Below are positions 6,663-32,122 of a DNA stretch of 64,000 nucleotides, piece by piece (within the stretch, counting starts at the first letter, position 1; every line of letters starts with the position of its first letter). Position numbers and translations under genes: made by a program. The notes beneath the pieces are model-generated. The model did no database searches. It was not told the origin of the DNA and saw only the letters and a list, made by a program, of their open reading frames with translations. The stretch comes from Alphaproteobacteria bacterium (GTDB lineage Bacteria > Pseudomonadota > Alphaproteobacteria > JAAEOK01): the NCBI GenBank assembly GCA_024244705.1, contig JAAEOK010000053.1, positions 1 through 64,000 of the forward strand, in the 5' to 3' direction.

Positions 6663-6819
6663 GGTCGCGTTCCATGGAAAACTCTTGGCTCGGTGAGGTC
6701 AGGATAGTCATCGCCCGCCGAGGCGTGAAGAGACATTCGCGACCTATGTTCGGCAACCGCGGACGCGTTCGGCCGCGCCGCTCATGCCGAACGCGGCGGA
6801 GATTCCATGGCAGCGTCGA

Positions 6820-7827: not shown

Positions 7828-7853
7828 GGCTTCGCCCCCGTTTTCTGTTGAAA

Positions 7854-10210: not shown

Positions 10211-10323
10211 AAGCACCTCAAGAGGTCGACGAGCCGAATTGTAGACCGCTTCGATGGGAGAGTCCGGGCGGATCGGAGAGACGGCCGCCGGCAGCCGCCT
10301 CTCCGCCCGAAGCGTTGTGCCGG

Positions 10324-11900: not shown

Positions 11901-11949
11901 GTTGAAGTCTCCCTTTCGAGTATTGCCCGCGTGACGTCACACGTGACGG

Positions 11950-12981: not shown

Positions 12982-14429
12982 GCCGGCACACCCGCACTGA
13001 CATAGGACGTCTTGACGGTGGTGTAGAATTCGGCCGCGTAGCGGCCCTGTTCTCGCGGACCGAAGCTCGAATCACCGCGCCCGCCGAAGGGGACGTGGTA
13101 GTCGGTTCCCGCCGTCGGCAGATTGACCATGACGCAGCCGGTCTTCGAGTTGCGCCGGAAATGGCTGGCCCGCGCCAGCGATGAGGTGACGATGCCGGAG
13201 GTCAACCCGAAGCTGGTATCGTTGGCGGCGGCCAGCGCCTCTTCGTAGGCACCGACCTTGATGACGCAGGCGATCGGCGCAAACATCTCCTCCCGATTGA
13301 CGCGCTGGTCATTGCGGGTGCCGGCGAACAGGGCCGGCGCCATGTAGTAGCCGTCGCTCTCGAACTCGAGCCGCTCGCCGCCGAGAATATGCTCGGCGCC
13401 CTCGTCGATCGCGAGCCGCACGTATCCGAGGTTCGCTTCGAGCTGCTCCGCGCTGACCACCGGCCCGATCTGCGTGCCCTCGGCCAGCGCGTGGCCGACC
13501 CGGAGCGCGCGGACCGCCGCCGCCAGCTTCTCGACGAAGGCGTCATGCACTGTTTCGTGTACGATCAGTCTCGACGATGCGGTGCATTTCTGGCCGGTCC
13601 CGCCATAGGCGCCGTTGGCGGCGCACTGCACGGCGATATCGATGTCGGCGTCGTCCATCACCACCAGCGGGTTCTTGGAGCCCATCTCGAGTTGCACCTT
13701 GGTCATGTTGGCGATCGCGGAGGCCGCGATACCGCGGCCGACAGCGACCGAACCGGTAAACGAGATGGCGTCGATCAAGGGGCTCTCGATCAGGCGCTGG
13801 CCGATCTCCCGGCCGGACCCCATGACCAGATTGAAAAGTCCGTCCGGCAGGCCCTGGCGCGAGATGATCTCGCTCAACGCCCAGGCCGAGGCGGGGGTCA
13901 GGTTCGCGGGCTTCCACGCGACCGCGTTGCCGAAGGCGAGGGCCGGCGCGATTTTCCATGCCGCGGTGGCGACCGGGAAATTCCACGGCGAGATGATGGC
14001 GACGACGCCGACGGGTTCGCGGCGAACGTCAATCTCGATGCCGTCACGTACCGAATCGGCCGTATCGCCGATTTGCCGCAGCACCTCGGCGGCGAAATAG
14101 GTGAAGAACTGCCCCGCCCGAAATACCTCTCCAACGCCCTCGGCGCGCGGCTTGCCTTCCTCTCGCGACAGCAGCTCGCCAAGTTCGGCGCGGCGGCCCT
14201 TGAGCTCCTCGCCGATCGCCATGAGCGCGGCGTAGCGATTCTCCAGGCCGCTCTTGGCCCAGGTCGCCTGCGCCTCGCGCGCAGCGGCGAGCGCGTGCTC
14301 GAGCTGTTCGCCGGTCGCCTGGGCGTAATGGCCGATGACATCTGACCGATCGGACGGGCTGCGATTCTCGATCGCGCCGTCGGACCCGGCCCAATCGCCG
14401 GCGATATAGTTCCTGAAAATGTTCGACAC
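12978..14429 (-). CDS. NAD(P)-dependent aldehyde dehydrogenase
   Basis: A 483-aa aldehyde dehydrogenase oxidising an aldehyde to its acid. The catalytic Cys is C282 in GQKCTASSR and the general base is E248 in LEMGSKNP; the cofactor loop ISPWNFP is at 147-153. The sequence resembles the 2,5-dioxovalerate/succinate-semialdehyde group, but aldehyde specificity cannot be read off. A GTG start follows TGAGGT. It heads the long minus-strand gene string and is divergent from a LysR regulator, so it is the likely first target of that regulator. It overlaps the next gene by four bases. Confidence 0.9.
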   Translation of the reverse strand: MSNIFRNYIAGDWAGSDGAIENRSPSDRSDVIGHYAQATGEQLEHALAAAREAQATWAKSGLENRYAALMAIGEELKGRRAELGELLSREEGKPRAEGVGEVFRAGQFFTYFAAEVLRQIGDTADSVRDGIEIDVRREPVGVVAIISPWNFPVATAAWKIAPALAFGNAVAWKPANLTPASAWALSEIISRQGLPDGLFNLVMGSGREIGQRLIESPLIDAISFTGSVAVGRGIAASAIANMTKVQLEMGSKNPLVVMDDADIDIAVQCAANGAYGGTGQKCTASSRLIVHETVHDAFVEKLAAAVRALRVGHALAEGTQIGPVVSAEQLEANLGYVRLAIDEGAEHILGGERLEFESDGYYMAPALFAGTRNDQRVNREEMFAPIACVIKVGAYEEALAAANDTSFGLTSGIVTSSLARASHFRRNSKTGCVMVNLPTAGTDYHVPFGGRGDSSFGPREQGRYAAEFYTTVKTSYVSAGVPA

Positions 14430-16331: not shown

Positions 16332-16910
16332 TCAATCCTCGGTCCGCGGTTTGATGGTCGGCTTGTGCCACACCAGTTTCTGCACCTCGGCGTCGAGCGG
16401 CGTGCCCGCGATCGAGTTGGTGTAATTGCTGAGCACCTTGGTCGCGATTCCCAACACCACTTCGAGCGCCTGTTGCGGTTCCCAGCCGGCGTCGAAGAAC
16501 GCCGCCAAATCGCTCTCGGCGATCTTGCCCTTGGTCCGAATCACCGCCTGGCTGTACACGCGGAGGGCCTCCAGCTTCGGATCGCCAAGCCGGCCGCCGG
16601 CGCGCAGCGCGGCGACGTCTTCGGGATCCATCTTGGCCTGCCTGGAAAGCAGGGTGTGCCACGGGACACAATAATCGCACTCGTTTTCGAAGTTGGCGGT
16701 CTGATAGACGACCTGCCGCTCGACCGGCGAAAACGACGTTTCGTCGAACAGGTCCCACAGCGCGCCATAGCCTTTGAGAAGGGGCGGGGCCAGCGCCATG
16801 GTTCCCTCCAGATTGGGAATCATGCCGAACTCCTCGCGCGTCGCGGTCAGTTGTTCGAGCGCGGCGTCCGGCGCGTTGCTTTCATCGTGGATGGGAAATC
16901 GATCGGCCAT
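16332..16910 (-). CDS. carboxymuconolactone decarboxylase/AhpD-like protein
   Basis: A 192-aa helical protein of the CMD/AhpD superfamily. The motif NECDYCVPWHTLLSRQA contains the C-x2-C-x3-H arrangement of the peroxidase-type active site, so it is more likely a peroxidase or thiol reductase than a decarboxylase. It is monocistronic and converges with the Crp/Fnr gene (72-base gap). The 194 bases between its start and the flavin-reductase gene hold one of the shared TetR-type operators, but that site is nearer to the other gene. Confidence 0.82.
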   Translation of the reverse strand: MADRFPIHDESNAPDAALEQLTATREEFGMIPNLEGTMALAPPLLKGYGALWDLFDETSFSPVERQVVYQTANFENECDYCVPWHTLLSRQAKMDPEDVAALRAGGRLGDPKLEALRVYSQAVIRTKGKIAESDLAAFFDAGWEPQQALEVVLGIATKVLSNYTNSIAGTPLDAEVQKLVWHKPTIKPRTED

Positions 16911-17017: not shown

Positions 17018-17043
17018 TATTGATTGATCGATTAATTAGATCA
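17018..17043. promoter_or_regulatory. TetR-type operator, site A
   Basis: The sequence TTGATCGATTAATTAGA at 17024-17040 matches the motif TTRAYCGATTAATYAA also found at 19619, 19892 (one half) and 20667. It lies about 65 bases upstream of the flavin-reductase start, in a promoter position. An AT-rich palindrome of this kind in otherwise GC-rich DNA is unlikely by chance when seen four times next to one tetR gene. Confidence 0.65.
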
Positions 17044-17104
17044 ATGCCAAGGGCGGCGGTCGGAGGACAGACCGGCCCGGTCACGGATGGAGGTTACGGA
17101 ATCT

Positions 17105-17809
17105 ATGAGCGACAAGATCCCCGATTGGTCGAGCGACGACGGCCGCAAGCGCGTACTGATCCTGAGTTCGACGCCGCGCGTCGAGGGCAATTCGCAGCGT
17201 CTCGCCGAGGCGACGCGCGACGGCGCCCTGGAAGCGGGCCACGAGGTCCATTTGGTCCGTCTCGTCGATCATCAACGGGAGATGCTCCGCGATTGCCGCA
17301 AATGCAGAACTGCCGACGGCCAATGTAGCATCGAGGACGGTCACCGGCGGATATTCCTCGATCTTTTCCTGACCGCCGATACCGTCGTCTACGCCACGCC
17401 GATCTGGTGGTACGGCATATCCGCGCAGCTCAAGGCGTTTCTCGATCGCACGTTCTGCTATGTCGCGGCCTCCTATCCGGATGCCGAACGGGTCGCGGCA
17501 GCGATTCCGGGAAAGCGCGCGGCGCTCCTGCTCAGCGCCGAGGAGAGCAATTTCGCCGCCCGCCTCGGGATCACCACGCAGATGAGCGAGATGTGCCGTT
17601 ACCTCCACCATGATTTCGTCGGTATCGTGGTTGGGATCGGCAATTCGCGGTCCGAGGTCGGCGACGATCCGGGCGACCCGCTCGAATCGGCGCGCGCCCT
17701 GGGTGCGCGCCTTTTCGATATCCGCCAGACCGATTACCAATTGGACACCGCTCGCTCGCCCCGCGTGTGGGATGGCAACAACGATCCGTTCCCGGCGCAG
17801 TGGCGATAA
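17105..17809 (+). CDS. flavodoxin-fold NAD(P)H-dependent FMN reductase/quinone reductase
   Basis: A 234-aa flavodoxin-fold oxidoreductase. LILSSTPRVEGNSQRLAEA forms the FMN-phosphate loop at the N terminus and TVVYATPIWWYGISAQLK the second flavin loop; CRKCRTADGQC between them is typical of the iron-sulfur-flavoprotein-like/NADPH-dependent FMN reductase group. The ATG at 17105 is preceded by GGAGG at 17088; an upstream in-frame ATG at 17087 would include that site. Operator A lies upstream. Its likely job is to supply reduced flavin or reduce a quinone or azo-like compound within the TetR island. Confidence 0.85.
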   Translation: MSDKIPDWSSDDGRKRVLILSSTPRVEGNSQRLAEATRDGALEAGHEVHLVRLVDHQREMLRDCRKCRTADGQCSIEDGHRRIFLDLFLTADTVVYATPIWWYGISAQLKAFLDRTFCYVAASYPDAERVAAAIPGKRAALLLSAEESNFAARLGITTQMSEMCRYLHHDFVGIVVGIGNSRSEVGDDPGDPLESARALGARLFDIRQTDYQLDTARSPRVWDGNNDPFPAQWR

Positions 17810-18337: not shown

Positions 18338-19597
18338 CTAGACGGCCCCGTATTTGGCAATATAGGCGGCCTTGGCCGCGGTGAAGCACGGCATCGAGGC
18401 GCGCACCACGCCGGCGCCGATCTGACCGCCGTCGCGGCCGGCGACACCGATGTCCATGGCGGGGAGGATGCCGGTCTCGATGACGCGGAAGATATCGATG
18501 CCGGTCGGCGTGCCCCGATAGCCCAGGGCGGGGATCTGGTAGTCGGGGTTCTCGCCCAGCGTGATTTCGTAGAGTTCCCGATTGCGCTCGATCATCGCCT
18601 CGGCCGATCCGCCTTGATAGCGCTGCAGCGGAAACGCCGCTGCTTGCGCGAAACCGCCGAGACCGATGGTTTCGGTAATCGTGCTTTCGCCCCCCATCCA
18701 GGTGATCTCGTCTTCGCTGTGGCCGTCGAAGAGCTTGGCTTGGACCTCGGCATGTGGACCGATGAACCAGGTGTCCCCGAGACCACTCACGCGAATCGCG
18801 AAATTTCGGCAATTGAAGGCCATGGCCGTGACCATCGACGAGCCGTCGACGCCGCGGGCGGCGTCTGCGGTCGCTTTCGCCGCCGCCATCGAGAGGCGCA
18901 GGAAGAAATAGTGGTCTTCGGTCAGGGCGGCGATCGTCTGCTGCACCTGTTCGCGCTGGCGGTCGGCGATGTCGATCATGAAGGGTACGATCTCGCGGAA
19001 GAAAATCAGCGCGGCGGCCGTGCTCCGGCTGTGCAACTCGTCGCCCATATGGAGCGCGCGTTTCATAATCGGCTTCAGCGGAATTCCACCGGCCCGCCGG
19101 ATCGCGTCGCCGACGATCCGCGCGACGACGTCGTTGACGAACAACAGCCGCTCGCGCACGCCGTCGTCGTAAACGCCATAATTCAAGCGACGCGGGTTTG
19201 TGCCTTCGTACATGTTGCAGAAGCCGCTATTGCCGTGCGCCGCATTGGTGACGACGAAGACCGGCATCGATGCCGTATAGATGCCGGCGAGCGATCCGAC
19301 GGCGCTATAATCATGGCACCCGCCGACGACGATATCACCATCGTCCAGTCGTCGTATCGCCCCGTCCCGGTCGGCGGCCAAGCCTTCGAATAGGGCGCCG
19401 CCGATGATCGCTTCGCGTTGCCCGCCGTCATAGTCGGGCCACGGCATCGGTGGGCCCGAGGTCAGCACCGTCGTTTTGGTCATTCCGGGCAGGACATCGA
19501 TCGCCGGCCTGACATCGGTCAGAACCGGATCCGCCGCGCAGAGCCGGGTCCAGGCTTCGCGATTGGCGTCTTCCATCAAGGCGCTGGTTTCGGCCAC
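18338..19597 (-). CDS. DUF1116 (AllG/YlbE-like) protein
   Basis: A 419-aa protein of the DUF1116 family, whose E. coli members include AllG, a component of the oxamate carbamoyltransferase of allantoin breakdown. Conserved-looking segments are MGDELHSRSTAAALIFFREI near 195 and MAFNCRNFAIRVSGLGDTWF near 265. The GTG at 19597 is chosen because GGGAGG lies six bases upstream. The usual partners AllF (FdrA-like) and AllH (DUF2877) are absent from this window. It starts just beside operator B and is divergent from tetR, so it belongs to that regulon. A carbamoyl- or amide-transfer role is an inference from the family. Confidence 0.82.
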   Translation of the reverse strand: MAETSALMEDANREAWTRLCAADPVLTDVRPAIDVLPGMTKTTVLTSGPPMPWPDYDGGQREAIIGGALFEGLAADRDGAIRRLDDGDIVVGGCHDYSAVGSLAGIYTASMPVFVVTNAAHGNSGFCNMYEGTNPRRLNYGVYDDGVRERLLFVNDVVARIVGDAIRRAGGIPLKPIMKRALHMGDELHSRSTAAALIFFREIVPFMIDIADRQREQVQQTIAALTEDHYFFLRLSMAAAKATADAARGVDGSSMVTAMAFNCRNFAIRVSGLGDTWFIGPHAEVQAKLFDGHSEDEITWMGGESTITETIGLGGFAQAAAFPLQRYQGGSAEAMIERNRELYEITLGENPDYQIPALGYRGTPTGIDIFRVIETGILPAMDIGVAGRDGGQIGAGVVRASMPCFTAAKAAYIAKYGAV

Positions 19598-19614: not shown

Positions 19615-19637
19615 TCAATTAATCGATTAATCAATTA
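19615..19637. promoter_or_regulatory. TetR-type operator, site B
   Basis: TCAATTAATCGATTAATCAA starts at 19615. Its core TTAATCGATTAA (19619-19630) is a perfect 12-base palindrome, and the flanks extend the symmetry imperfectly. It lies about 20 bases upstream of the DUF1116 ribosome binding site, where a bound repressor would block transcription. It is the most symmetrical of the four copies and is probably the closest to the consensus. Confidence 0.7.
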
Positions 19638-19891: not shown

Positions 19892-19902
19892 CGATTAATT
19901 GA
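19892..19902. promoter_or_regulatory. TetR-type operator half, site C, over the tetR start codon
   Basis: CGATTAATTGA at 19892-19902 is the exact reverse complement of the left half of site B (TCAATTAATCG). The other half is not conserved. It spans the spacer between the tetR ribosome binding site and the TTG codon at 19899, so binding here would autoregulate tetR weakly. Confidence 0.5.
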
Positions 19903-20606
19903 CCCCCCGCATCAAAAAATCAGGTCGTCCCCGACCGCGGACCAAGGGCCGTCCCGACGGCGAGGTTCATCGCATGCCACCGCTCGGCCGCGAGGCTCAA
20001 TTGAAGGCCGCCGCACTCGACTTGTTCGCCGAGCGAAACTTTGCATCCGTCACGATCAAGGACATCGCGCGGGCGACGGGCGTCAATACGGCGCTGATCT
20101 ACTACTACTTCGAAAGCAAGGACGATCTGTTTCGCGCGGTCATAGAAAACGCGGTCGACCAAGCGTTTGAGAACTTCCGCAAACTTCGCGAGCGGCATGA
20201 AAATCCGGCCGAGATCATCGACGACTGGCTCAACAACCATGTCCAACTCTTCGAACCGATCCACAAGCTGGTCAAAGTCAGTCTCGACTATTCCGGTACC
20301 CGTGACCGGATCGCTTCGATCGACCGATCGATTCGCCAGTTCTACGAGGAGGAATCCCGCATGCTGTCGAATTGCATTCGTCAGGGTATCGCGGAAGGAC
20401 GATTCCGGCCCGTCGATGCCGAGCAACTGGCGTTGTTCATTTCGACCTATTTGGATGGGGTCATGGTGCGCTCGGTCATATTGCCCGATTTGGATCTGGA
20501 AACGGTCGTTGATTATCTGCGCCAGCAGGTGTGGAGCATCCTCGGCTACGAATACGACATCGGCAACCGATCGAAGGCGCCGTCGCCCTCTGCTTCGACG
20601 GGGTAA
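19899..20606 (+). CDS. TetR/AcrR-family transcriptional regulator
   Basis: A 235-aa regulator with a TetR helix-turn-helix (AALDLFAERNFASVTIKDIA, then ATGVNTALIYYYFESKDDLF, about residues 33-77) and an alpha-helical ligand domain. A TTG at 19899 follows GGTGAGGAG; the basic N-terminal tail (PRIKKSGRPRPRTKGRP) would be lost if the ATG at 19974 were used. The four matching palindromes upstream of the flavin reductase, the DUF1116 gene, tetR itself and the ligase operon make it the probable local regulator of this island, most likely a repressor released by the pathway substrate. Confidence 0.92.
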   Translation: MTPRIKKSGRPRPRTKGRPDGEVHRMPPLGREAQLKAAALDLFAERNFASVTIKDIARATGVNTALIYYYFESKDDLFRAVIENAVDQAFENFRKLRERHENPAEIIDDWLNNHVQLFEPIHKLVKVSLDYSGTRDRIASIDRSIRQFYEEESRMLSNCIRQGIAEGRFRPVDAEQLALFISTYLDGVMVRSVILPDLDLETVVDYLRQQVWSILGYEYDIGNRSKAPSPSASTG

Positions 20607-20661: not shown

Positions 20662-20695
20662 ACTAATTGACCGATTAATTAATTTAGGGCAGAAT
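20662..20695 (+). promoter_or_regulatory. TetR-type operator, site D, overlapping a promoter
   Basis: TTGACCGATTAATTAAT at 20667-20683 is a full match to the shared motif. TTGACC (20667-20672) and CAGAAT (20690-20695), 17 bases apart, form a fair -35/-10 pair, so the operator covers the -35 box and the spacer of the ligase operon promoter. The remaining ~200 bases to the ligase start would be leader; I see no riboswitch-like structure in it. Confidence 0.65.
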
Positions 20696-20902: not shown

Positions 20903-22339
20903 ATGGCGCCAAGAGCGAAATCGAGCCGGCACAAAACAGCCACCCGCAAGGCGACGACGCCGACTCGCGACAGCCTCGAGAAATCTGGCGTCAAATACTG
21001 TTTTTCGTCCTATGTCGACGCCCACGGCGTGGCCAAGGGGAAAGCGGTTCCGATCGATCATTTCGACCGCATGATGCGCGGTTCGGAGCTGTTCACCGGC
21101 GCCGCCCTCGACGGCCTCGGCCAGGGACCCCACGACGACGAACTCGCGGTTCACCCGGACCCGGGCGCAGTCGTCCAATTGCCGTGGCGACCGGAAGTGG
21201 CGTGGGCGCCGGGGTTCCTCAAATACCACGACGAGCCGTGGCCGATGTGTTCGCGTACGGTGTTGCAGCGTCAGATCGACCGCGCCGCGGCGCTCGGCTT
21301 GCAATTCAATCTCGGTATTGAATGCGAGGTCTATATCGTGCGCCGAAACGGCCGCGAGATCGAGCCCAACAACCCCTTCGACGATATTGCCAAGGCCGCC
21401 TACGACGTCCAGCTCACGCTTGAGAATTACGACTTTCTCAACGAATGCGTGAGCGCCATGAATGCGCTCGGCTGGGAGGTCCATTCGTTCGACCACGAAG
21501 ACGCCAACGGCCAGTTCGAGTTCGATTTCGCCTATGCCGACGTGATGACCATGGCCGACCGGTTCGTGCTGTGGCGCCTGATGATGAAGGAGATCGCCCG
21601 CAAGTATGGCTGGGAGGCGACCTTCATGCCCAAGCCGTACGCCAATCGCACCGGCAGCGGGGCTCATTTCAACATGTCGCTGTCGAGCACCAAGACCGGC
21701 CGCAATATCAGCGGTGACGCCAAGGACCCAAGGGGTTGTGGGCTCTCGAAAATCGCCTACCAATTCCTCGGCGGCATCAAGAAGCATGCCGAAGCGATCG
21801 TCGCGGTCACCTGCCCGACGGTGAATTCCTACAAACGCCTGATCAAGACCGGGTCGATGACCGGCTACACCTGGGCGCCGGTATTCATCTCCTACGGCGG
21901 CAACAACCGGACCCATATGCTTCGCGTGCCCAAGCTGCGTCCCCAGGTTGAAGGCAAGGCATCGCCCAATTCGTCCACCTATCTATCGGCGGCGCGCTGG
22001 GAATGCCGTGCCGTCGATCCTTGCGTCAATCCATACCAGGGCGCGGCAATGATGCTGGCGGCCGGCCTCGATGGCATCGAGAACGCATTGGATCCGGGGG
22101 ATCCGATCGATGTCAACATGTACGAGTTGAGCGACCGGGAGCTTGCCAAGCGCGGCGTCAAGTTGCTGCCGGCAACCCTGCTCCACTCTGTCCAGGCCTT
22201 CGCCGCCGACCCGATGAGCCGGCAAGTCATGGGCGACGATTTGTATGATTCCTTTGTCGATCTAAAGACCGCGGAGTGGTGGGACTACCACAACCATGTC
22301 TCCGATTGGGAAATCGACAACTACCTCACAAAGTACTGA
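20903..22339 (+). CDS. glutamine-synthetase-like ligase (type III/GlnT group)
   Basis: A 478-aa glutamine synthetase superfamily member, ATP-dependent, joining glutamate (or another acid) to ammonia or an amine. Motifs: LGIECEVYIVRRNG, EDANGQFEFDFAYADV (metal site), RTGSGAHFNMSLS, TVNSYKRLIKTGSMTGYTWA and ARWECRAVDPCVNPYQGAAM. A basic, Lys/Arg-rich 20-residue N-terminal tail is unusual. AGAGGA precedes the ATG. It is followed by the phosphatase gene after 14 bases and shares operator D as promoter control. The closest characterised relatives by pattern are GlnT and gamma-glutamylmethylamide synthetase; with an APC permease next door an imported amine is the likely acceptor. Confidence 0.87.
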   Translation: MAPRAKSSRHKTATRKATTPTRDSLEKSGVKYCFSSYVDAHGVAKGKAVPIDHFDRMMRGSELFTGAALDGLGQGPHDDELAVHPDPGAVVQLPWRPEVAWAPGFLKYHDEPWPMCSRTVLQRQIDRAAALGLQFNLGIECEVYIVRRNGREIEPNNPFDDIAKAAYDVQLTLENYDFLNECVSAMNALGWEVHSFDHEDANGQFEFDFAYADVMTMADRFVLWRLMMKEIARKYGWEATFMPKPYANRTGSGAHFNMSLSSTKTGRNISGDAKDPRGCGLSKIAYQFLGGIKKHAEAIVAVTCPTVNSYKRLIKTGSMTGYTWAPVFISYGGNNRTHMLRVPKLRPQVEGKASPNSSTYLSAARWECRAVDPCVNPYQGAAMMLAAGLDGIENALDPGDPIDVNMYELSDRELAKRGVKLLPATLLHSVQAFAADPMSRQVMGDDLYDSFVDLKTAEWWDYHNHVSDWEIDNYLTKY

Positions 22340-22353
22340 GGCGGGACCGCACC

Positions 22354-23334
22354 ATGTTCTGGAAGAAGAAGAAAACCGAAACCGGCGACAAGGTTGTGAT
22401 CTTCTTCGCTTCCGACCTTCACGGATCCAATGTCTGTTTCAAGAAATTCGTAAATGGCGCCAAGTTTTATGGCGCCAACGTCTTGGTGATGGGCGGTGAC
22501 CTCACCGGCAAGGCGGTGATCCCGGTTTGCGAGCAGGCGGATCGCTCGTATCTGGCTTTTCAGACCGGCTCGACGATCACGCTCAACGGCCAGGAAGAGG
22601 TTGACGATTTCATCAAGAGCAACGGCAACAAGGGGTTCTATCCGCAGATCATGACGGAAGCGGAATTCCAGGCGCTCAAATCCGATCCGGACGCCCAGGA
22701 CGAGTTGTTCAAGAATCTCGTCTGCGACCGCGTCCGAGAGTGGTGCGATTATGCCGGTCAGCTTTTGGCGGATACCGATATTCCGCTGATCACGGCGCCG
22801 GGCAACGATGATTTTTTCGAGATCGACGAGGTTCTCAACGACTCGCCGCACGTTCAATATCATGAAATGGAGGTCACCGAGCTGCACCGTTACGAGATGC
22901 TGCATTGCGGCGGATCGACCAAGACGCCCTGGGACACCGAGCGCGAGTTCACCGAGGAAGAATACCAGGCAAAGTTCGAGGAGCTGATTCCCCAGGTCAA
23001 GGATATGGCCGGTTGCATTTTCAACGTGCATGTGCCGCCCCACGGCACGGTCCTCGACCAATGCCCGAAGCTTGATGACAACCTGCAGGTCGTTTTCGAT
23101 ATGGGCAATCCGGTCAGCATGCACGCCGGCAGCTCGACACTGACCGAGACAATCAAACAGCATCAGCCCTTGCTTGGCCTTCACGGCCACATCCACGAAG
23201 GCCGCGGCAATATCAAGATCGGGAATACGGTCTGCGTTAATCCCGGCAGTGTCTACCCCGAGGGAATTCTTCAGGGTGTTCTAACCACATTGCAGGGCGG
23301 CGAAGTCCGCAGCGTTCAACTCACCCAAGGCTAG
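22354..23334 (+). CDS. calcineurin-like metallophosphatase/phosphodiesterase
   Basis: A 326-aa soluble metallophosphoesterase. The two-metal motif order is intact: ASDLHGS (DxH), MGGDLTG (GDxx), APGNDD (GNxx, the usual His replaced by Asp), FNVHVPPHG and LHGHIHEGRGN (GHxH), then NPGSVYPEG. GND instead of GNH means the catalytic His is missing or supplied elsewhere. The start at MFWKKKKTETG follows the ligase stop by 14 bases. A phosphatase embedded between a glutamyl ligase and a permease is unusual; it may cleave a phosphorylated intermediate or a nucleotide adduct. Confidence 0.85.
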   Translation: MFWKKKKTETGDKVVIFFASDLHGSNVCFKKFVNGAKFYGANVLVMGGDLTGKAVIPVCEQADRSYLAFQTGSTITLNGQEEVDDFIKSNGNKGFYPQIMTEAEFQALKSDPDAQDELFKNLVCDRVREWCDYAGQLLADTDIPLITAPGNDDFFEIDEVLNDSPHVQYHEMEVTELHRYEMLHCGGSTKTPWDTEREFTEEEYQAKFEELIPQVKDMAGCIFNVHVPPHGTVLDQCPKLDDNLQVVFDMGNPVSMHAGSSTLTETIKQHQPLLGLHGHIHEGRGNIKIGNTVCVNPGSVYPEGILQGVLTTLQGGEVRSVQLTQG

Positions 23335-23373
23335 ATTGGGAACGCACCCGCCCAGAGCAAAGGGAGACGTTCG

Positions 23374-24990
23374 ATGAGTATTACGGATTCTGGCGGTGAA
23401 CAGAGAATCTTTCTCCGCAAGGCTTCCGGCCTAATACGAACTGCGGGAGGCCTGGATACCTTTATCTACAACCTTGGGCTCGTAAGTGTTGGCCTCGGCG
23501 TCGCCAGCATCATGTTCTACGGCCCGGCCTATTACCCGGGTGGGAACCTTCTGTGGGCGTGCCTGTTGGCCGGCGTGTGCATGGCGCTTATCGCCTTCGG
23601 GTTCATAACTTGGACCGTAACCCTGCCGCGTTCGGGCGGCATCTATGTCTTCGGCTCGCGCATCCTGCCGCCGTCGCTGGCCCTTACCATGAGCTTGGTG
23701 GAAATCACCGCATGGCTCTTCTATTGCGCCATCGCCGCCTATTGGATCGTGTTGCTGGGTCTGTCGCCCGCGCTCACGCTCGTCGGCTATTTGACTGGGA
23801 GCGACGGTTTCGTCGCCGCCGGCGCGTGGGTCATCGAACCGTGGCCAATGTTCTTGATCGGCTCGGCCATCTTGATCCTGTCGGGGATCATCCTGTCCGC
23901 CGGCATGAAGTTCTACCTGATGACCCAGAAGATTGTCTTCACCACGGCGCTGCTCGGTTCTTTGCTGCTGATCGTTGTTCTGCTCAGTGGTTCAAACGCG
24001 GAATTCATCGTCAACTTCAACGAACTCATGGGACCGATCCTGGGCGTTGAAAACCCCTATCAGGCGGTCATCGCGTCGGGGCGGGAAAACGGGTGGAGCT
24101 GGGATGGCGAAACCGACTGGGTGCAAACCTGGCTGGTCTCGAACTGGCCGTTCCTGCCGCTGGTCGGCGCCGCGTTTTCGATCGCCATCGGCGGCGAGAT
24201 CAAGTCCGTTGAGCGATCGCAGACCTATGGCATGCTGGGCGCCGTCTTCGGCGCGGTGGTCATCTGGCTGATCACGATTTCGTTGTGCAACTCGGTGTTC
24301 GGCTACGAGTTCCTGGGAACCGCCGCGTTCAATTTGCTTGAAGGCGTCGGTGTCCAGACCGATCCGACGATCACCTTGTTGGCGGGCGTGCTCACCGGTT
24401 CACCGCTGATCTGCATCCTGGTTTCCATCGGCTTCATGTTCTGGATGTGGATGTGGATCCCCGGCATGCACACCTTTGGCGTGCGCGCCATCGTTGCCTG
24501 GTCCTTCGACCGCGTGGCGCCGGCGCCGTGGGGCAAGATATCGCCGACCCGGCACACGCCGATCGTCGCCATCGTATTCACCATGTGCCTCAACATCATC
24601 TTCATGGCGCTGTTCGTGTTCTCGTCGTTTTTCTCGGCCATCGTGATCCTGATCGAGGCGGCGGTGCTGGCCTGGAGCGTGGTGCTCGGGGCGGGGATCT
24701 TCTTCCCCTACATGCGGCCTCAGATCTACGAGAAATCACCGATCGCAAAGCGGAATATCCTTGGACTGCCGATGATGACGGTGGCATGCACCCTCGGCTT
24801 TATCGCCTGTCAGTTCTATTTTTGGACGCTGTGGTCCGATCCGGTCGCCGCCGGGCACGATCCGCAGCAGCTGGCGATCGTCGCCGGAATATTCGTGATC
24901 GGATTTGCCTTCTATTTCATCATGAAGGCGATTCGCAAATCGCAGGGCGTAGACGTAACCCTCGCGTTCAAGGAAATCCCCATCGAATAA
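23374..24990 (+). CDS. APC-superfamily amino acid/amine permease
   Basis: A 538-aa inner-membrane carrier with about 12 hydrophobic helices. RTAGGLDTFIYNLGLVSVGL near residue 22 and LPRSGGIYVFGSRILPPSLA near 85 match the first helix and the GG-containing helix 2-3 loop of the amino acid/polyamine/organocation superfamily. The long extracytoplasmic loop near 225-255 is Trp-rich (GWSWDGETDWVQTW). GGGAG lies upstream of the ATG. It is probably the importer of the TetR island's substrate and is followed by a strong terminator, so it closes the ligase-phosphatase-permease operon. Confidence 0.9.
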   Translation: MSITDSGGEQRIFLRKASGLIRTAGGLDTFIYNLGLVSVGLGVASIMFYGPAYYPGGNLLWACLLAGVCMALIAFGFITWTVTLPRSGGIYVFGSRILPPSLALTMSLVEITAWLFYCAIAAYWIVLLGLSPALTLVGYLTGSDGFVAAGAWVIEPWPMFLIGSAILILSGIILSAGMKFYLMTQKIVFTTALLGSLLLIVVLLSGSNAEFIVNFNELMGPILGVENPYQAVIASGRENGWSWDGETDWVQTWLVSNWPFLPLVGAAFSIAIGGEIKSVERSQTYGMLGAVFGAVVIWLITISLCNSVFGYEFLGTAAFNLLEGVGVQTDPTITLLAGVLTGSPLICILVSIGFMFWMWMWIPGMHTFGVRAIVAWSFDRVAPAPWGKISPTRHTPIVAIVFTMCLNIIFMALFVFSSFFSAIVILIEAAVLAWSVVLGAGIFFPYMRPQIYEKSPIAKRNILGLPMMTVACTLGFIACQFYFWTLWSDPVAAGHDPQQLAIVAGIFVIGFAFYFIMKAIRKSQGVDVTLAFKEIPIE

Positions 24991-25010
24991 GACGAGTCTG
25001 GGTATCTCCC

Positions 25011-25053
25011 CGGGAAGGTTCGAGATAGTATCTCGGCCTTCCCGACTTTTTTG
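25011..25053 (+). terminator. rho-independent terminator after the permease gene
   Basis: CGGGAAGG (25011-25018) pairs with CCTTCCCG (25037-25044), and an inner stem CGAGATA/TATCTCG extends the helix to 15 pairs with two small mismatches. ACTTTTTT follows at once. It separates the permease from the nucleotidyltransferase-like gene 31 bases downstream, which therefore depends on read-through or its own promoter. Confidence 0.9.
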
Positions 25054-25083
25054 TCGAGAGTGGTGCCGGCGATGGAAGGTCTA

Positions 25084-25863
25084 ATGACGGACAAAAATCT
25101 TCACCTGGAATTCGTCGACGAGGCGCTGCGTCTCGTTCGTGATGCGGAGGAGCGCGGCATTCAGCTGCGCATCCTGGGGTCGATCGCTTACCGCCTGCAA
25201 TGCCCCAAGAATCTACATCTTTTCGATGACATGGCGCGGGTGCTGACCGATGTCGATTTCGGCGCCATGAAGCGGCAAAACAATGATATCCGCCAATTCA
25301 TGATCAGCCAGGGCTATCAGCCCGACGAAGGCGTATACGTCGCCTCCGAGGGCTCTCGCCACATCTACCTGCATCCCGAAACCAAGCTCAATGTCGACGT
25401 CTTTGCCGACGAGTTATACTTCTGCCACTGCGTGCCGTTCCGCGGTCGCCTTGGCATCGACACGCCGACAATCTCGACCACCGATCTGTTGCTCGAGAAG
25501 ATGCAGATCGTCGAGATCAACCTCAAGGATTTCAAGGATACGCTGGTCCTGATGCTCGAGCATCCGCTCGGCAGCGCGGCCGACAGCAACAAGCATATCG
25601 ATGCCGATTATGTTGTCGATATCATGTCCAAGGACTGGGGCTTCTACTACACGTTCACCACCAATCTCCGGCGCGTACCCGATTACATACCGGAATTTCC
25701 CGCGATCACCGAGGACGAGGGCAAGATCATCAGGGCACGGATCGACGACCTGCTGAACTTGATCGAGAGCGCGCCCAAATCATTGAAGTGGAAGGTGCGC
25801 GCGAAGGTCGGCACACGGAAATTATGGTACCAGGAAGTGACCGAGAAATCGGACCAGTATTAG
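25084..25863 (+). CDS. nucleotidyltransferase-fold protein
   Basis: A 259-aa protein. LRILGSIAYRLQCP (GS loop), LTDVDFGAM (first acidic pair) and KLNVDVFADE (third acidic strand) form the pattern of a minimal polymerase-beta-type nucleotidyltransferase, as in AbiEii-like or aminoglycoside-type enzymes. The C-terminal half is helical and basic. GGAAGG stands four bases before the ATG at 25084; an ATG at 25072 is the alternative. It follows the permease terminator in the same orientation. Partner antitoxin genes are absent, so a toxin role has no support here; a metabolic nucleotidyl transfer linked to the ligase and phosphatase is possible. Confidence 0.65.
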   Translation: MTDKNLHLEFVDEALRLVRDAEERGIQLRILGSIAYRLQCPKNLHLFDDMARVLTDVDFGAMKRQNNDIRQFMISQGYQPDEGVYVASEGSRHIYLHPETKLNVDVFADELYFCHCVPFRGRLGIDTPTISTTDLLLEKMQIVEINLKDFKDTLVLMLEHPLGSAADSNKHIDADYVVDIMSKDWGFYYTFTTNLRRVPDYIPEFPAITEDEGKIIRARIDDLLNLIESAPKSLKWKVRAKVGTRKLWYQEVTEKSDQY

Positions 25864-26077: not shown

Positions 26078-26725
26078 CTAGATTTGTAGGCCCCAGCCCA
26101 ACGCCTTGCGGACGGCTTGGGTCCGCCGGGAGACATCCAGTTTTCGGTACACGTTCTTGAGATGAAAGGCGACCGTGACATCGCTCGATCCGAGCGCACG
26201 GGCGATCTCCTTGTTGGCCAGCCCTCGGACGAGTTGCACCAGCACTTCGAACTCGCGTGCGGTCAGGTCGTTGAGGGGACTGTCGGTGGTGAGTCCCACT
26301 CTCTGATCGTCGACCGCCGACATGTTGCTTGCGGAAAGCGCGGCTTCGGGGATATATGGCTCGCCCGCGAGAATGAGCTCGAGCGCCGATAGCATCGCCT
26401 TGCCGCTCAAGTTCTTGGGAATGAATCCCGCCGCGCCGCTATCCAAGGCGTCGCGCATCTGACGCCCATCCGCATTCCCAGAAATGATGACGACTGGAAT
26501 GTCGGGGAACGCCGCGCACATCTTGCGCAATCCGCTCGTTCCGTCCATTCCGGGCATGTGAAGATCGAGAATAACCAGATCGATCGAAGCGGTGCCGGAC
26601 ACCAACTTCAGGGCCTCGCCGAAACTCGTACCGCGCAGCATTTCGATTCCCGGTCGAAGCTGCGTCAGGTAGGAGCCCAGCGCTTCGGCCACCATAAGAT
26701 GGTCATCGGCGAGCAAGATCTTCAT
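26078..26725 (-). CDS. NarL/FixJ-type response regulator
   Basis: A 215-aa two-domain response regulator. The receiver domain has the acidic pair in LLADDH, the phosphoacceptor D54 in VILDLHMPGMDG and the conserved Lys in GFIPKNLSG. The LuxR-type helix-turn-helix is LTAREFEVLVQLVRGLANKE and the following recognition helix (residues ~150-205). The ATG at 26725 is the start of similarity; the frame extends upstream but without family sequence. It is divergent from the large hybrid kinase gene, and the two probably form one phosphorelay. Confidence 0.93.
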   Translation of the reverse strand: MKILLADDHLMVAEALGSYLTQLRPGIEMLRGTSFGEALKLVSGTASIDLVILDLHMPGMDGTSGLRKMCAAFPDIPVVIISGNADGRQMRDALDSGAAGFIPKNLSGKAMLSALELILAGEPYIPEAALSASNMSAVDDQRVGLTTDSPLNDLTAREFEVLVQLVRGLANKEIARALGSSDVTVAFHLKNVYRKLDVSRRTQAVRKALGWGLQI

Positions 26726-27265
26726 CGATGACCCCGCCCGTTTGCCAACCTGGACGCGGCGCAAAACGCTCCGACTGTTTGACCGCCGCGGAACAAGCGC
26801 GAACCGGCGTCCAAACCGTTTTCCAGCTTGCCCTCGATCGAGCATGCAATGATCGAGCTTCTCACTTTCTCACACCCCCACCATCCCGCCCTTCGTGGTG
26901 GCTTTTGGATGGCTCTTTCCTTCAGGTGTATGCCGACCGCCCCATCGAATCTCTATCGCCGTTCGATTTTGGTTGGTCACGGGGATTATAGCATCGCGGG
27001 CGGCAGCGAAGACAGCCTAAAGCGGATCCCTCATGTCGCTAAACACGCAAGAATTGGGCGGCCGACCCGACTTCCGATACCGTTCATGGTATGCTCTCAT
27101 ATACCTCGTCAAACGTGCCACCGGGGCGCCGATAATCGGTGCCGCGGGAAAAGCGGTGGGCGGTGCGGATCGGGCGCATTCGATCATAGGCCTGAGTGTG
27201 TTCGATGCCTCGAATGCGCCGCGTACCGCTTGCAATGTCGGAAACTCGAACCAGGGGGTCGGCCC
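26726..27265. other. 540-base gap between response regulator and hybrid kinase
   Basis: The kinase frame is open through most of this gap, but the translation is Arg/His/Cys-rich without any domain similarity, so I treat it as non-coding. No clear promoter, terminator or repeat was recognised by eye. The length is unusual for this compact window and leaves room for the two divergent promoters and perhaps an unseen small RNA. Confidence 0.3.
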
Positions 27266-30200
27266 ATGCGGAAGCGGGCAGATGGACAATCCGAAATCGA
27301 GAGGTTGTGGCTTCGCGTATCCGAATTGGAGCAGGAAAACCTGGCGCTGTGCGATGCGGCGCGGTCGGCCGCGGAGACCCAAGCGGCGAGTTCGGCAGTG
27401 GGGTGTTCGGGTCCGCAGGGCGATGGCATGGATGTGTGCGAGCAGGTTCAGGCATTCGCCAAATCTTTGCCGCTGGCGGTCGCCTATGGCGACCGAGACC
27501 GGCGATGCCGTTTCTACAACGAACCCTTTGCCGCGCTCTACCAATTGAACGGCGAGCCTCCGGTAGAATGTCCCATGGCGGATATCGTCGGTCCGGACGC
27601 CTATTCCGAAATCGAGTCCGGCATCCGATCGGCTCTCGCCGGCGAGGCTGTCGAATTCCAGCACGAGCTGCCGACCAACGGCGGCCGCGAGAAAATCAAG
27701 GCACACTATATTCCGCATGGCTCCGCCGGCGGGTCCGCCCACGGCTTTTTCATCGTGCTGCCCGATCATACCGAAACACGGCGGACCCGGGACGCATTGC
27801 ACGCCAGCCAGGCACGGCTGCAGGCATTCCTCGACAACATGCCGTGTGAGATGGGGATCAAGGACCTGGAGGGCCGCTATGTATTGATCAATCGCTTCGC
27901 CGAGAAGCTGTACGGCCGTACCTCCGATGAAATTCGGGGACTGACCCCACACGACCTGTTTCCCGCCGATGTTGCCGATCAACTTGCCGCCCAAGATGGC
28001 AATGTCCTGGATACGGGCGAGGTCCTGACGGAAGAAGTCGAAGCCAAGATCGATGGCGCGGCGCAAACCTTTCTGGCGACCGAATTTCCCATTCTGAACG
28101 ATGCCGGAGAAATTTCCGCGCTCGGTTCGGTCGCCACCGATGTCTCGCACCAAAAGCGACAAGAGGAGGCACTTCGCAAGACCGAGGCGATGTACAAGAA
28201 ATCGGAACGCTTGGCGGGACTCGGACATTGGGAATGGGACGAGGTCGACGATCGGTGCGTTTATTGCTCCGAGGAGCTGGCTCGATTGCACGGTTATGGG
28301 GTCGATGCGTGCCTCCGGAATCTCGCTCACACGCCTGAGAATATCGAGGCCGTTCATCCCCGCGATCGTGAGAAATATCGGCAGGCGGTGACGAAGCTCC
28401 GCGAGCAGAAGGTGGGCTTCAAGATCGATTATCGCCTGTTGCGTCCGGATGGAACCTGCATCGACGTGCGCCGGGTAGCCGAGCCGGTGCTCGACGATCG
28501 GGGGGTGCTGGTGCGATCGGTCGGCTACGTCCAGGACGTGACCGGCCAAATGAGGACGGAACGAGCGCTTCGGGAGAGCGAGCGTCGATTCAGGGATTTC
28601 GCCGATGCTTCGTCCCACTGGCTGTGGGAGACCGATTCCGATTCCCGATTCACCTATGTTTCGGATGACATCTCGAAAATCGGCGGAGAAGACCCATCCG
28701 AACTTGTCGGCAAGAAAATGTGGGATACCTTTCGCAGCCGATCGTCTGATTCGGCGGACCGGCCGGCACCGCCAATCGAAATTGAGCAGTGCGAACGGTT
28801 CGAGGAATTTGACGTCGGATGGAAAGACGGTACGGGAGACATCGGAGTCCTTAGCCTGAGTGCGACACCGGTGTTCGACGATGAAGGCGAGTTCGTCGGT
28901 TACCGAGGGACGGCGCGCGACATTACCGAGCAGCGGCGTGCCGTCGAGGAATTGCAGCAGAGCGAAACCTTGCTGCGGCAGGCGGCTCAGATGGCCGATC
29001 TGGGCCATTGGGTTTGGGACGAAATTGAGGACAAGTGTGCTTATTGTTCGGAAGAACTGGCCCATTTGGATGGCATGGCAGTCGAGGAGTGCCTTGACCG
29101 ATTCCGTACCATCGGCGATGTGTTCTCCGTTCTTCATCCTGACGATCGCGACCAATACGAACGAGTCGTTTCGGAAGCGAGGACAAGCCGCCAACCATAC
29201 GAGGTAGAATACCGATACCGGGCCAACAGCGCCGAATATCGTCATGTTCGAGAACGTGGCGAGCCCGTATTCGACGCCGACGGGACACTGATCCGCACGA
29301 TCGGGATCGTCCAGGACATCTCCAAGAGCAAGCGAACCGAGGAGACGCTGCGAAAGAGCCAAGCCGATTTGGCCGAGGCACAGCGCATGGCCAAGATCGG
29401 CCATTGGTACTGGTCCATCGAGACCGATGAGCTGGTTTCCTGCTCCGAGGAATACGCGCGAATCCATGGCGTCTCACCAGATCGAATAAAAAGCCATCTG
29501 GCAAAGCAGATGGAGGAAATCGTGCACCCGGAGGACCGCGATCGCGTTCGCAAGGCATTCAAGGAGGCGGATGACGAGGGGCGCGACTACGAAATCGGAT
29601 ATCGCATTATTCGCCCCGATGGCGAGGTCCGCCATGTTCACGAAATCGGCGAAGCGGTGCGCGACGAAAACGGCCGTCCGATCGCTCATGCCGGAACGAT
29701 ACAGGATGTGACCGAGCAAAAACTTATCGAGGAAGCCTTACGCCGCAGCGAGGAGAAATTCCGCGCTCTTATCGAGGGATCGATTCAGGGCATTGTCGTC
29801 CATCAGGACTGGAAGCCCGTGTTCGCGAATCAAGCGAGCGTCGATATCTTCGGCTACGACCGGATAGACGAGTTGACCGCGATCGAAGATATCGAGCGAC
29901 ACATCGCCCCCCATGAACGGAAGCGCCTTGCGGGTTACCGGAAAGCGCGCCTCTTGAACCGGGAGGCACCCACCCGCTACACCGCTGAATATCTGCGCAA
30001 GGACGGATCCAGCGTGTGGCTGGAAAGCGTCGCTACGGTCGTTGAATGGGACGGCGGGACGGCCATCCAATCGACGTTTCTCGATGTCACCGAGCGCAGG
30101 AAAGCCGAGGAATCTCTGCAAGAGGCCAAGCGCGAACTCGAACGTCGCGTCGAGGAGCGAACGCGAGAGTTATCGGCGGCCAATGCGGCACTTCAGGTCG

Positions 30201-32122
30201 AGATCGAGGAGCATCGCTCGACTGAACATGCCTTGCGCGAAAGCGAAAAACGTATCCGCGCCATCACCGATGCCTTCCCCTCGCAGATCGCCTACGTCGA
30301 CCGCGATCGCAAATATCGCTTCAACAATGCCGCCTATAAGGAATGGTTCGGTGTTTCCGGCGAGGAATGCCTTGGCCGGCACGTAAGCGAGGTTGTCGGG
30401 AAGGACAACTACAAGAAAATTCGGCCACACATCGATCGAGCATTGTCGGGCGAGAAGGTGCACTACGAATATCTGACCGCGCAGGGACGGTACGCCGAGG
30501 TCAACTACATGCCTGATTTCGATGATGGCGGAAACGTTCGGGGATTCTATGGCCTGGTTCACGACATCAGCGAGGCAAAAGCGGCAGAAATGGCCTTGAC
30601 CGAAAGCCGCGAGTTGCTGCGCGCTATCCTCGATGTTGTGCCGGTTGCGATAAGCGTTAAGGATTCGCAGTTTCGCTATGTCTTCATGAATCGGTACGTG
30701 GCGACGAGTTGGGCCATCGATTCGGATGACGCCGTCGGCTGCACGCTGGACGAACTCGTTGCTGAAGAACTCGCGAGCTCCGTTTCTGAACGCGATCGTG
30801 CTGTTCGCGAGTCGGGTCATCCTTCGCCGCAATATGAACGCAATGTCACCGACGCAGGCGGTCGTGAGCGGAGTTGGCTGACCACCAAGATCCCGATCAA
30901 AAGCGAGGACGGCGCGCTGCGCCACATCGTCACCGTTTCGCTCGACATTACGGATCTGAAGGCCCGTGAAGAGGAGTTGAGGCACGTCCAGAAAATGGAA
31001 GCAGTCGGCAAGCTCACCGGCGGCATAGCGCACGATTTCAACAATCTGCTGTTCGTGATCTGCGGTAACCTCGCCTTGCTCGAGAAAGAGATCGAAGGCA
31101 ATGAACGGGCCGGCGAAATCAGCGAAACCATTGGAGCGGCCACGGCACTTGGCGCCGATCTGACGCGTAGCCTGCTGACTTTTTCCCGGCAGCAGCCATT
31201 GAAACCGACACTGGTCGATCTCCGCGATACAATACAGGGGACGATCGCGACGTTGCTGCGGACGCTGGGGGAAGCGGTCCACATCGAACTGTCCTGTGGC
31301 GATCTATTGTGGCCCGTCTTGGTCGACCGCGGCATGCTCGAGAACTGCCTGCTGAATCTGGCTCTGAATGCCCGGGACGCGATGCCGGACGGCGGCACGC
31401 TCAGCGTATCGGTCGCGAATGTGGACCGTCGCACCGGCTCCAACGGGGCCGAATCATTGCCGCGAGATACCGACTACGTCGAAATCAGGGTCAGCGATAC
31501 CGGCACCGGCATGACCAAGGAAATCGTCGAGCAATGCTTCGAACCTTTCTTCTCCACCAAACCCCCCGGTTCGGGCACGGGCCTCGGCCTTAGCATGGTT
31601 TACGGTATCGTCACGCAGTCTGGAGGCGACGTCGCGATCGACAGCGAAGTCGGCAAGGGCACAGCGATACAGCTCTTTCTCCCACGGGCGAAGGACGCCC
31701 CTTCCGAGCAGGCGGCGCCCGGTCGCGCCGCCGCCCCAGTGGCTCGGGGCGTGGAAACCATCCTCGTGGCCGAGGACGACGATGCGGTGCGTCGGGTCGC
31801 GGTCAATCTGTTGCGGGATCTGGGTTATCGAACCCGGGAGGCCGCGGATGCGGAGGAGGCGCTCACCGTATTGGAGGATGAGCCGGGGATTGACCTGCTG
31901 TTCACCGATATTGTGCTGCCCGGAAAACTCAACGGCCCCCAATTGGCGAGCCAAGCGCGCGAGCGGCGTCCACGGGTCAAGGTGCTGTTCACGACCGGGC
32001 ATTCGACGCCCGCGGCGATGCGGGACCTCGAGGCGTGGAGCGACACCAAGCTTCTCATGAAACCCTACGGACCCGAGGAGCTGGCGAAAGAGGTTCGCGT
32101 CGAACTCGATAGCGCCACTTAG
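27266..32122 (+). CDS. soluble hybrid histidine kinase with nine PAS domains and a receiver
   Basis: A 1618-aa cytoplasmic kinase (no membrane segment or signal peptide). A short N-terminal coiled coil is followed by nine PAS/PAC units; those beginning GHWEWDEVDD, GHWVWDEIED and GHWYWSIETD are close copies. A long coiled coil (ELERRVEERTRELSAANAAL) separates PAS7 from PAS8. Then come the phosphoacceptor helix (GGIAHDFNNLL), the ATPase domain (NLALNARDAM, DTGTGM, GSGTGLGLSMVYG) and a C-terminal receiver (EDDDAVRR, LLFTDIVLP, LLMKPYGP). The ATG at 27266 follows GGGGGT and starts the helical MRKRADGQSEIERLW segment. Divergent from the NarL regulator. The PAS ligands cannot be told from sequence. 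Confidence 0.92.
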   Translation: MRKRADGQSEIERLWLRVSELEQENLALCDAARSAAETQAASSAVGCSGPQGDGMDVCEQVQAFAKSLPLAVAYGDRDRRCRFYNEPFAALYQLNGEPPVECPMADIVGPDAYSEIESGIRSALAGEAVEFQHELPTNGGREKIKAHYIPHGSAGGSAHGFFIVLPDHTETRRTRDALHASQARLQAFLDNMPCEMGIKDLEGRYVLINRFAEKLYGRTSDEIRGLTPHDLFPADVADQLAAQDGNVLDTGEVLTEEVEAKIDGAAQTFLATEFPILNDAGEISALGSVATDVSHQKRQEEALRKTEAMYKKSERLAGLGHWEWDEVDDRCVYCSEELARLHGYGVDACLRNLAHTPENIEAVHPRDREKYRQAVTKLREQKVGFKIDYRLLRPDGTCIDVRRVAEPVLDDRGVLVRSVGYVQDVTGQMRTERALRESERRFRDFADASSHWLWETDSDSRFTYVSDDISKIGGEDPSELVGKKMWDTFRSRSSDSADRPAPPIEIEQCERFEEFDVGWKDGTGDIGVLSLSATPVFDDEGEFVGYRGTARDITEQRRAVEELQQSETLLRQAAQMADLGHWVWDEIEDKCAYCSEELAHLDGMAVEECLDRFRTIGDVFSVLHPDDRDQYERVVSEARTSRQPYEVEYRYRANSAEYRHVRERGEPVFDADGTLIRTIGIVQDISKSKRTEETLRKSQADLAEAQRMAKIGHWYWSIETDELVSCSEEYARIHGVSPDRIKSHLAKQMEEIVHPEDRDRVRKAFKEADDEGRDYEIGYRIIRPDGEVRHVHEIGEAVRDENGRPIAHAGTIQDVTEQKLIEEALRRSEEKFRALIEGSIQGIVVHQDWKPVFANQASVDIFGYDRIDELTAIEDIERHIAPHERKRLAGYRKARLLNREAPTRYTAEYLRKDGSSVWLESVATVVEWDGGTAIQSTFLDVTERRKAEESLQEAKRELERRVEERTRELSAANAALQVEIEEHRSTEHALRESEKRIRAITDAFPSQIAYVDRDRKYRFNNAAYKEWFGVSGEECLGRHVSEVVGKDNYKKIRPHIDRALSGEKVHYEYLTAQGRYAEVNYMPDFDDGGNVRGFYGLVHDISEAKAAEMALTESRELLRAILDVVPVAISVKDSQFRYVFMNRYVATSWAIDSDDAVGCTLDELVAEELASSVSERDRAVRESGHPSPQYERNVTDAGGRERSWLTTKIPIKSEDGALRHIVTVSLDITDLKAREEELRHVQKMEAVGKLTGGIAHDFNNLLFVICGNLALLEKEIEGNERAGEISETIGAATALGADLTRSLLTFSRQQPLKPTLVDLRDTIQGTIATLLRTLGEAVHIELSCGDLLWPVLVDRGMLENCLLNLALNARDAMPDGGTLSVSVANVDRRTGSNGAESLPRDTDYVEIRVSDTGTGMTKEIVEQCFEPFFSTKPPGSGTGLGLSMVYGIVTQSGGDVAIDSEVGKGTAIQLFLPRAKDAPSEQAAPGRAAAPVARGVETILVAEDDDAVRRVAVNLLRDLGYRTREAADAEEALTVLEDEPGIDLLFTDIVLPGKLNGPQLASQARERRPRVKVLFTTGHSTPAAMRDLEAWSDTKLLMKPYGPEELAKEVRVELDSAT

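Follow-up and report, generated by a model that had tools for sequence, protein, structure and literature searches.

A conserved phosphoesterase, permease and nucleotidyltransferase module and its ligase-bearing version in an alphaproteobacterial contig

Four neighbouring genes in an alphaproteobacterial contig (JAAEOK010000053.1, positions 1 to 64,000; this whole stretch of 64,000 nucleotides is referred to as the window) raise the question of which of them belong together, and of what a nucleotidyltransferase and a phosphoesterase would act on in such company. They encode a glutamine-synthetase-like ligase (LIG), a calcineurin-like metallophosphoesterase (PHO), a permease (PER) and a nucleotidyltransferase-fold protein (NTA). 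A sequence-only reading of this DNA had grouped them as an undescribed set under one TetR operator, and had suggested reversible nucleotidylation of the ligase. All four open reading frames are confirmed at the coordinates given in Table 1, co-directional on the forward strand, and no account of the cassette or of its PHO-PER-NTA part turned up in the literature searched, which held few subscription papers. Our analysis reveals PHO, PER and NTA as a conserved module, to which LIG is a lineage-specific addition. We tentatively propose, as a possible explanation, that the module controls the uptake of amines or other nitrogen compounds through reversible nucleotidylylation of PER by NTA and PHO, with LIG acting downstream.

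Linkage and co-occurrence of PHO, PER and NTA

The three core genes are linked and co-occur beyond chance when ascertained through different members. First, a scan of the genomes of 84,980 species with PHO only returned 544 relatives, from which 80 loci were kept. PER and/or NTA lies within 6 kb of PHO in 77 of these 80 PHO-ascertained loci and both do so in 56, whereas a ligase is found near PHO in only 13. Neighbourhood analysis of the four families therefore bears out three of them, linked far beyond chance, and the earlier notion of a four-gene unit is rejected since LIG is missing from most cassettes. The hosts comprise alphaproteobacteria, actinobacteria, Chloroflexi, Nitrososphaeria, Thermoplasmata and Bathyarchaeota, and the order and strand of the core genes vary among them (PHO-PER-NTA, PER-PHO-NTA, NTA-PHO-PER and divergent forms). 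In the plasmid collection, Halobellus limi carries PHO, PER and an NTA annotated as ‘hypothetical protein’, and Thermomicrobium roseum a PER-PHO pair.

Second, an independent sampling of 150 genomes from the class of G299 was scanned with NTA, PHO and PER separately. PHO or PER was found within 1.5 kb of every one of the 25 canonical NTA loci examined. Of the 150 genomes, 27 have both canonical NTA and PHO, and 25 of these have PER too, whereas the remaining 123 have none of the three; these counts set aside a weak partial PHO match in G449 and nine genomes with degenerate NTA (five judged by sequence, the others by their score and the length of the reading frame), include G396 with an NTA fragment only, and derive from profiles built on cassette members, so that very divergent unlinked relatives could fall under the cut-offs. 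Lastly, in 16 other genomes, picked for holding a PHO locus, NTA lies within 5 kb of PHO in 26 of 30 cases and near PER in 22 of 30; several of these genomes hold two or three cassettes (repeated sets occur, for example, in G296 and G298). The families are rare in alphaproteobacteria, PHO being present in 1 of 289 genomes, NTA in 2 of 289 and PER in 1 of 115.

Could the genes be mere neighbours, co-occurring through the common ancestry of genome segments? Several Anaerolineae loci do have unrelated neighbours in common as well (NADH-dehydrogenase-like genes), but linkage persists across two domains while order and strand vary, co-occurrence of NTA and PHO stands at 27/27 against 0/123 and single genomes carry several cassettes. 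We regard this explanation as strongly disfavoured and extremely improbable. Distance-matrix correlations (r 0.76–0.94) were set aside as support, being confounded by species phylogeny.

Active sites and the candidate target

Library scans (Pfam, NCBIfam) gave almost no matches for PHO or NTA, and both were modelled. The PHO model, built with an alignment of 58 homologues, reached a predicted local distance difference test (pLDDT) score of 94.4 and has a calcineurin-like fold, in agreement with the sequence-only reading; its fold matches are 2yvt (E 2e-12), 1uf3 and MPPED2, the nearest proteins being aq_1956, TT1561 and the phosphodiesterase MPPED2. The metal ligands Asp21, His23, Asp49, Asn151, His226, His279 and His281 are conserved, in the pattern DxH, GD, GN, H, HxH, and the metal site is intact, as expected of an active calcineurin-like phosphoesterase. 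The earlier reading had singled out GND in place of GNH as an oddity of this protein. GNDD is instead the family norm, invariant across the 58 homologues, and we reject it as a defect.

The NTA model, built with an alignment of 60 homologues (pLDDT 93.7), is nearest to MenT1, ANT(2'')-Ia and LnuA, the resemblance being weak; MenT1, the top match, has an E-value of 1e-3. Gly32 of the GS/GG motif, Asp56 and Asp58 of the DxD motif and the third aspartate, Asp105, are invariant in the 60 sequences, as are Lys139, Asp149 and Asp152. The acidic triad, whose loss the sequence-only reading had named as fatal to its model, is thus present and a defective site is rejected. NTA stays below every Pfam and NCBIfam threshold, its matches to NTP_transf_5 (PF14907) scoring 11.9 to 25.0 bits against a gathering threshold of 31.2, and a search of PDB sequences yielded no useful match to NTA or PER. 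The Pfam domains of GlnE and GlnD were looked for in NTA, a single-domain protein of 259 residues, with no match, and it is not a GlnE homologue. Five degenerate relatives (L153–L157) carry a weakly matching roadblock/LC7-like N-terminal domain and have lost the DxD motif; neither PHO nor PER lies near them, and they are possibly non-catalytic descendants.

A reversible nucleotidylation pair is plausible because both active sites are intact, and to this extent the earlier proposal of control by nucleotidylation and dephosphorylation holds. Its choice of LIG as the target, by analogy with GlnE acting on GlnA, fares less well. In its favour, a ligase accompanies some cassettes whose NTA and PHO sites are intact, and LIG retains the Tyr aligned with the adenylylation site of GlnA (NMY). 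However, glutamine synthetases without adenylylation commonly have Tyr at this position too, so its conservation decides nothing, and NTA is not GlnE-like. Control of LIG is further disfavoured because a ligase is missing from the majority of cassettes, and most of the genomes concerned encode no close one elsewhere: among 29 genomes with a cassette but no adjacent ligase, only one has a close relative (65%), while the others gave either no match or matches no higher than 43% identity, ordinary GlnA among them. We consider LIG a very unlikely target.

PER is the more attractive candidate because it is the universal third partner and has near-invariant ends, both presumably cytosolic given the usual topology of APC permeases. 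Pfam assigns it to AA_permease_2 (E 3e-12), confirming the permease named earlier. The N-terminus carries the motif FxRKA[ST]GL and the very C-terminus E[IL]PxE; position 18 is Ser or Thr in 66 of 67 sequences and Pro536 is kept in 67 of 68. We postulate that NTA would transfer a nucleoside monophosphate (NMP) to PER, most likely to the cytosolic N-terminal Ser/Thr of FxRKA[ST]GL or to another terminal site, that PHO, with its phosphodiesterase-like fold, would take the nucleotide off, and that the two together would turn transport on and off. In the window's lineage, PER would supply a small amine to LIG, which would trap it as a gamma-glutamyl amide; LIG would then belong to downstream metabolism and not be a substrate of NTA.

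A serious rival to the permease as target is a small molecule. NTA would nucleotidylate the imported compound, or its phosphorylated form, and PHO would hydrolyse a phosphoester intermediate, which would make the cassette metabolic and not a means of control. ANT(2'') and LnuA adenylylate hydroxyls of small molecules, and both are among the closest structural relatives of NTA. The cassette neighbours are amine and amide enzymes, and a choline/ethanolamine-kinase-like gene stands between PER and NTA in L059, L068, L073 and L077. Such a kinase-like gene is found, however, in only 7 of the 80 loci, and forming and cleaving one bond would be futile unless regulatory. Moreover, the catabolic neighbours vary by lineage (MttB, dimethylglycine-dehydrogenase-like, choline-kinase-like, acetamidase/formamidase, nitrilase, isochorismatase and AllG), while the pocket residues of NTA and PHO are invariant; a constant protein target therefore suits the pair better than a changing substrate. 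We judge the small-molecule route somewhat unlikely.

Less probable still, and in our view quite unlikely, is that NTA modifies RNA in the manner of a MenT-like tRNA nucleotidyltransferase or toxin, or that it makes, and PHO destroys, a nucleotide signal sensed by the permease or a regulator. MenT1 does head the structural matches of NTA, and CBS-domain-like genes, annotated by eye, lie nearby in L021, L026, L061 and L067. These adjoin few cassettes only, though, no antitoxin-like partner was seen, and PER has no recognisable nucleotide-binding domain, its one Pfam match, AA_permease_2, spanning its length.

Several observations weigh against control of the permease. Some PHO-PER pairs, as in Thermomicrobium roseum, have no adjacent NTA, and some PHO-NTA pairs no adjacent PER. 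Matching of paralogues within genomes was positive for PHO-PER in 7 of 10 pairs, the other pairings showing no trend. Family members of PER that lie away from PHO share its terminal motifs, PHO and NTA being encoded elsewhere in the same genomes; we therefore reject the motifs as a signature specific to the cassette, and their presence there fits action in trans yet weakens the argument for PER as target. In the window itself a terminator-like hairpin with a T run parts PER from NTA, which may therefore be only partly co-transcribed, or made in smaller amounts. A strong hairpin of other sequence occupies the PER-NTA gap at other loci whose gap is at least 90 bp; a simple terminator scan did not pick up the one in the window. 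Finally, it is the module that is observed; nucleotidylation of PER, as of any other target, is something we infer, and transfer of NMP to PER by NTA and its removal by PHO would be the chemistry of the module. The broader proposal, that reversible nucleotidylylation by NTA and a de-nucleotidylase of the calcineurin type switches permeases widely in bacteria and archaea, coupled in the window's lineage to gamma-glutamyl amine assimilation, is rather doubtful.

The ligase-bearing version and its regulation

LIG joins the core in alphaproteobacteria and in some actinobacteria. It scores 532.9 bits against TIGR03105 (type III glutamate–ammonia ligase/GMAS, NCBIfam), above the cut-off of 469.6, which supports the earlier label of a GlnT-type ligase, and its best solved relative is the glutamate–methylamine ligase 9qur (E 4e-97). 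Against NF045547 (gamma-glutamylputrescine synthetase) it reaches 252 bits, far under the cut-off of 650, and so does not class as a PuuA equivalog. LIG adds one more ordinary member to the type III ligase family, and its acceptor is predicted to be an amine, as in 9qur. A basic N-terminal tail, which the sequence-only reading had found worth remark, is not conserved among LIG orthologues, and a function for it is rejected. A second cluster in the window (5310–14429, reverse strand) holds, by annotation by eye, another glutamine-synthetase-like ligase (5310–6662) together with a dehydrogenase, a dipeptidase-like gene and an aldehyde dehydrogenase.

Table 1. Positions in the window of the four genes, the accessory genes and the putative regulatory elements
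Feature	Position	Strand	Remarks
LIG	20903-22339	+	Type III glutamine-synthetase-like gamma-glutamyl amide ligase; predicted amine ligase
PHO	22354-23334	+	Calcineurin-like metallophosphoesterase; conserved core
PER	23374-24990	+	APC-superfamily permease; conserved core
Terminator-like hairpin	25011-25052	+	GC-rich, with T run; PER-NTA gap; read from the sequence, then folded
NTA	25084-25863	+	Nucleotidyltransferase-fold protein; conserved core; further in-frame ATG upstream at 25072
TetR-family regulator gene	19899..20606	+	Pfam TetR_N, E 1.9e-16; belongs to the alphaproteobacterial version
Putative operator copy 1, TAATTGACCGATTAATTA	20664..20681	+	Between TetR and LIG; 0 expected in window shuffles
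Putative operator copy 2	19620..19637	-	Before AllG-like gene; 3 mismatches; itself palindromic
Putative operator copy 3	17021..17038	+	Between CMD gene (-) and flavodoxin-like gene (+); 2 mismatches
AllG-like gene	18338..19576	-	Pfam AllG, E 5e-73; accessory; behind operator copy 2
Flavodoxin-like NAD(P)H oxidoreductase gene	17087..17809	+	Flavodoxin_2, E 2e-21; accessory; behind operator copy 3
CMD (AhpD-like) gene	16332..16910	-	CMD, E 1e-5; divergent from operator copy 3; membership uncertain

The single TetR operator described earlier proves to have company. The palindrome TAATTGACYRATTAATTA, allowing up to three mismatches, precedes LIG, the AllG-like gene and the flavodoxin-like gene, with none expected in window shuffles. 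Exact matches to TAATTGACYRNTTAATTA lie upstream of LIG in L003, L008, L009 and L011, and related copies stand before AllG in L009 and L011, with a weaker one in L008. TetR orthologues precede LIG in L002, L003, L005, L007, L008, L009 and L011. The adjacent TetR protein is the obvious candidate regulator, and it probably co-regulates the LIG operon, the AllG-like gene and the flavodoxin-like gene through the common palindrome. We claim no additional operator beyond the window (C82), sites with three mismatches being no commoner than in a reversed-pattern control.

The genes found near the ligase version are AllG-like (near LIG-PHO in 11 loci), an arginase-family ureohydrolase (9), an alpha/beta hydrolase (9), a flavodoxin-like gene (6: L007, L008, L009, L011, L013 and L015) and sometimes a glutaminase. 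Two actinobacterial loci (L015, 8622–19876, and L016, 97–10377) carry two ligases, two AllG-like genes and ureohydrolase-like genes on one strand around the cassette, with a flavodoxin-like gene on the same strand in L015; these sets look like a complete pathway. Elsewhere in the window, 33449–35818, 45414–47828 and 47866–50316 resemble the dimethylglycine/sarcosine-dehydrogenase-like protein that adjoins the cassette in Chloroflexi. A betaine/carnitine-type transporter at 10324–11900 is seemingly split over two frames (11298–11900 and 10431–11270), possibly by a frameshift or an assembly error. Just downstream of NTA, 26078–32122 holds a multi-sensor histidine kinase (a frame of about 1,760 residues) beside a LuxR-type response regulator.

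Comparison with known systems

Even without permease control, the cassette allows a single functional hypothesis to cover three little-characterised protein families found in both bacteria and archaea, and its presence in named organisms (Halobellus limi, and as PER-PHO in Thermomicrobium roseum) makes it open to testing. Taken as a reversible modification within nitrogen metabolism, a chemistry that we infer, the PHO/NTA/PER module matches nothing found in the literature searched, although each part has known relatives. For PHO these are the calcineurin-like phosphodiesterases aq_1956, TT1561 and MPPED2, which are alike in predicted fold and metal-site motifs; identity to them is about 15% and the TM-score about 0.5, and the PHO family has many invariant residues of its own. 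NTA resembles MenT1, ANT(2'')-Ia, LnuA and Pfam NTP_transf_5 in catalytic fold and acidic residues, but the structural matches are partial or poorly superposed, all matches to the Pfam family are sub-threshold and the genomic partners differ.

LIG aligns over nearly its full length with 9qur, a glutamate–methylamine ligase or gamma-glutamylmethylamide synthetase (TIGR03105; 9qur, 7cql), and has in common with it the TWAP motif near the active site. It differs in an insertion ahead of the RWECR motif and in its operon partners, PHO, PER and NTA. Gamma-glutamyl amine routes include Puu (PuuA) and Streptomyces coelicolor GlnA3/GlnA4 (PMC5403932, PMC6529630). The ligase version would follow the same predicted logic, in which an amine is imported and then trapped as a gamma-glutamyl amide. 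To our knowledge, neither NTA nor PHO is among the components of those routes.

We know of covalent control by nucleotidylation for glutamine synthetase and PII proteins and of none for a permease; if PHO and NTA do act on PER, a transporter would be controlled in this way. The idea in common with GlnE-GlnA and GlnD-PII is that of a nucleotidyltransferase and an opposing activity controlling nitrogen metabolism. GlnE, however, has two domains, whereas NTA is a single-domain protein of another nucleotidyltransferase family. In the cassette, moreover, a separate calcineurin-like protein would supply the opposing activity, and the conserved partner is a permease.

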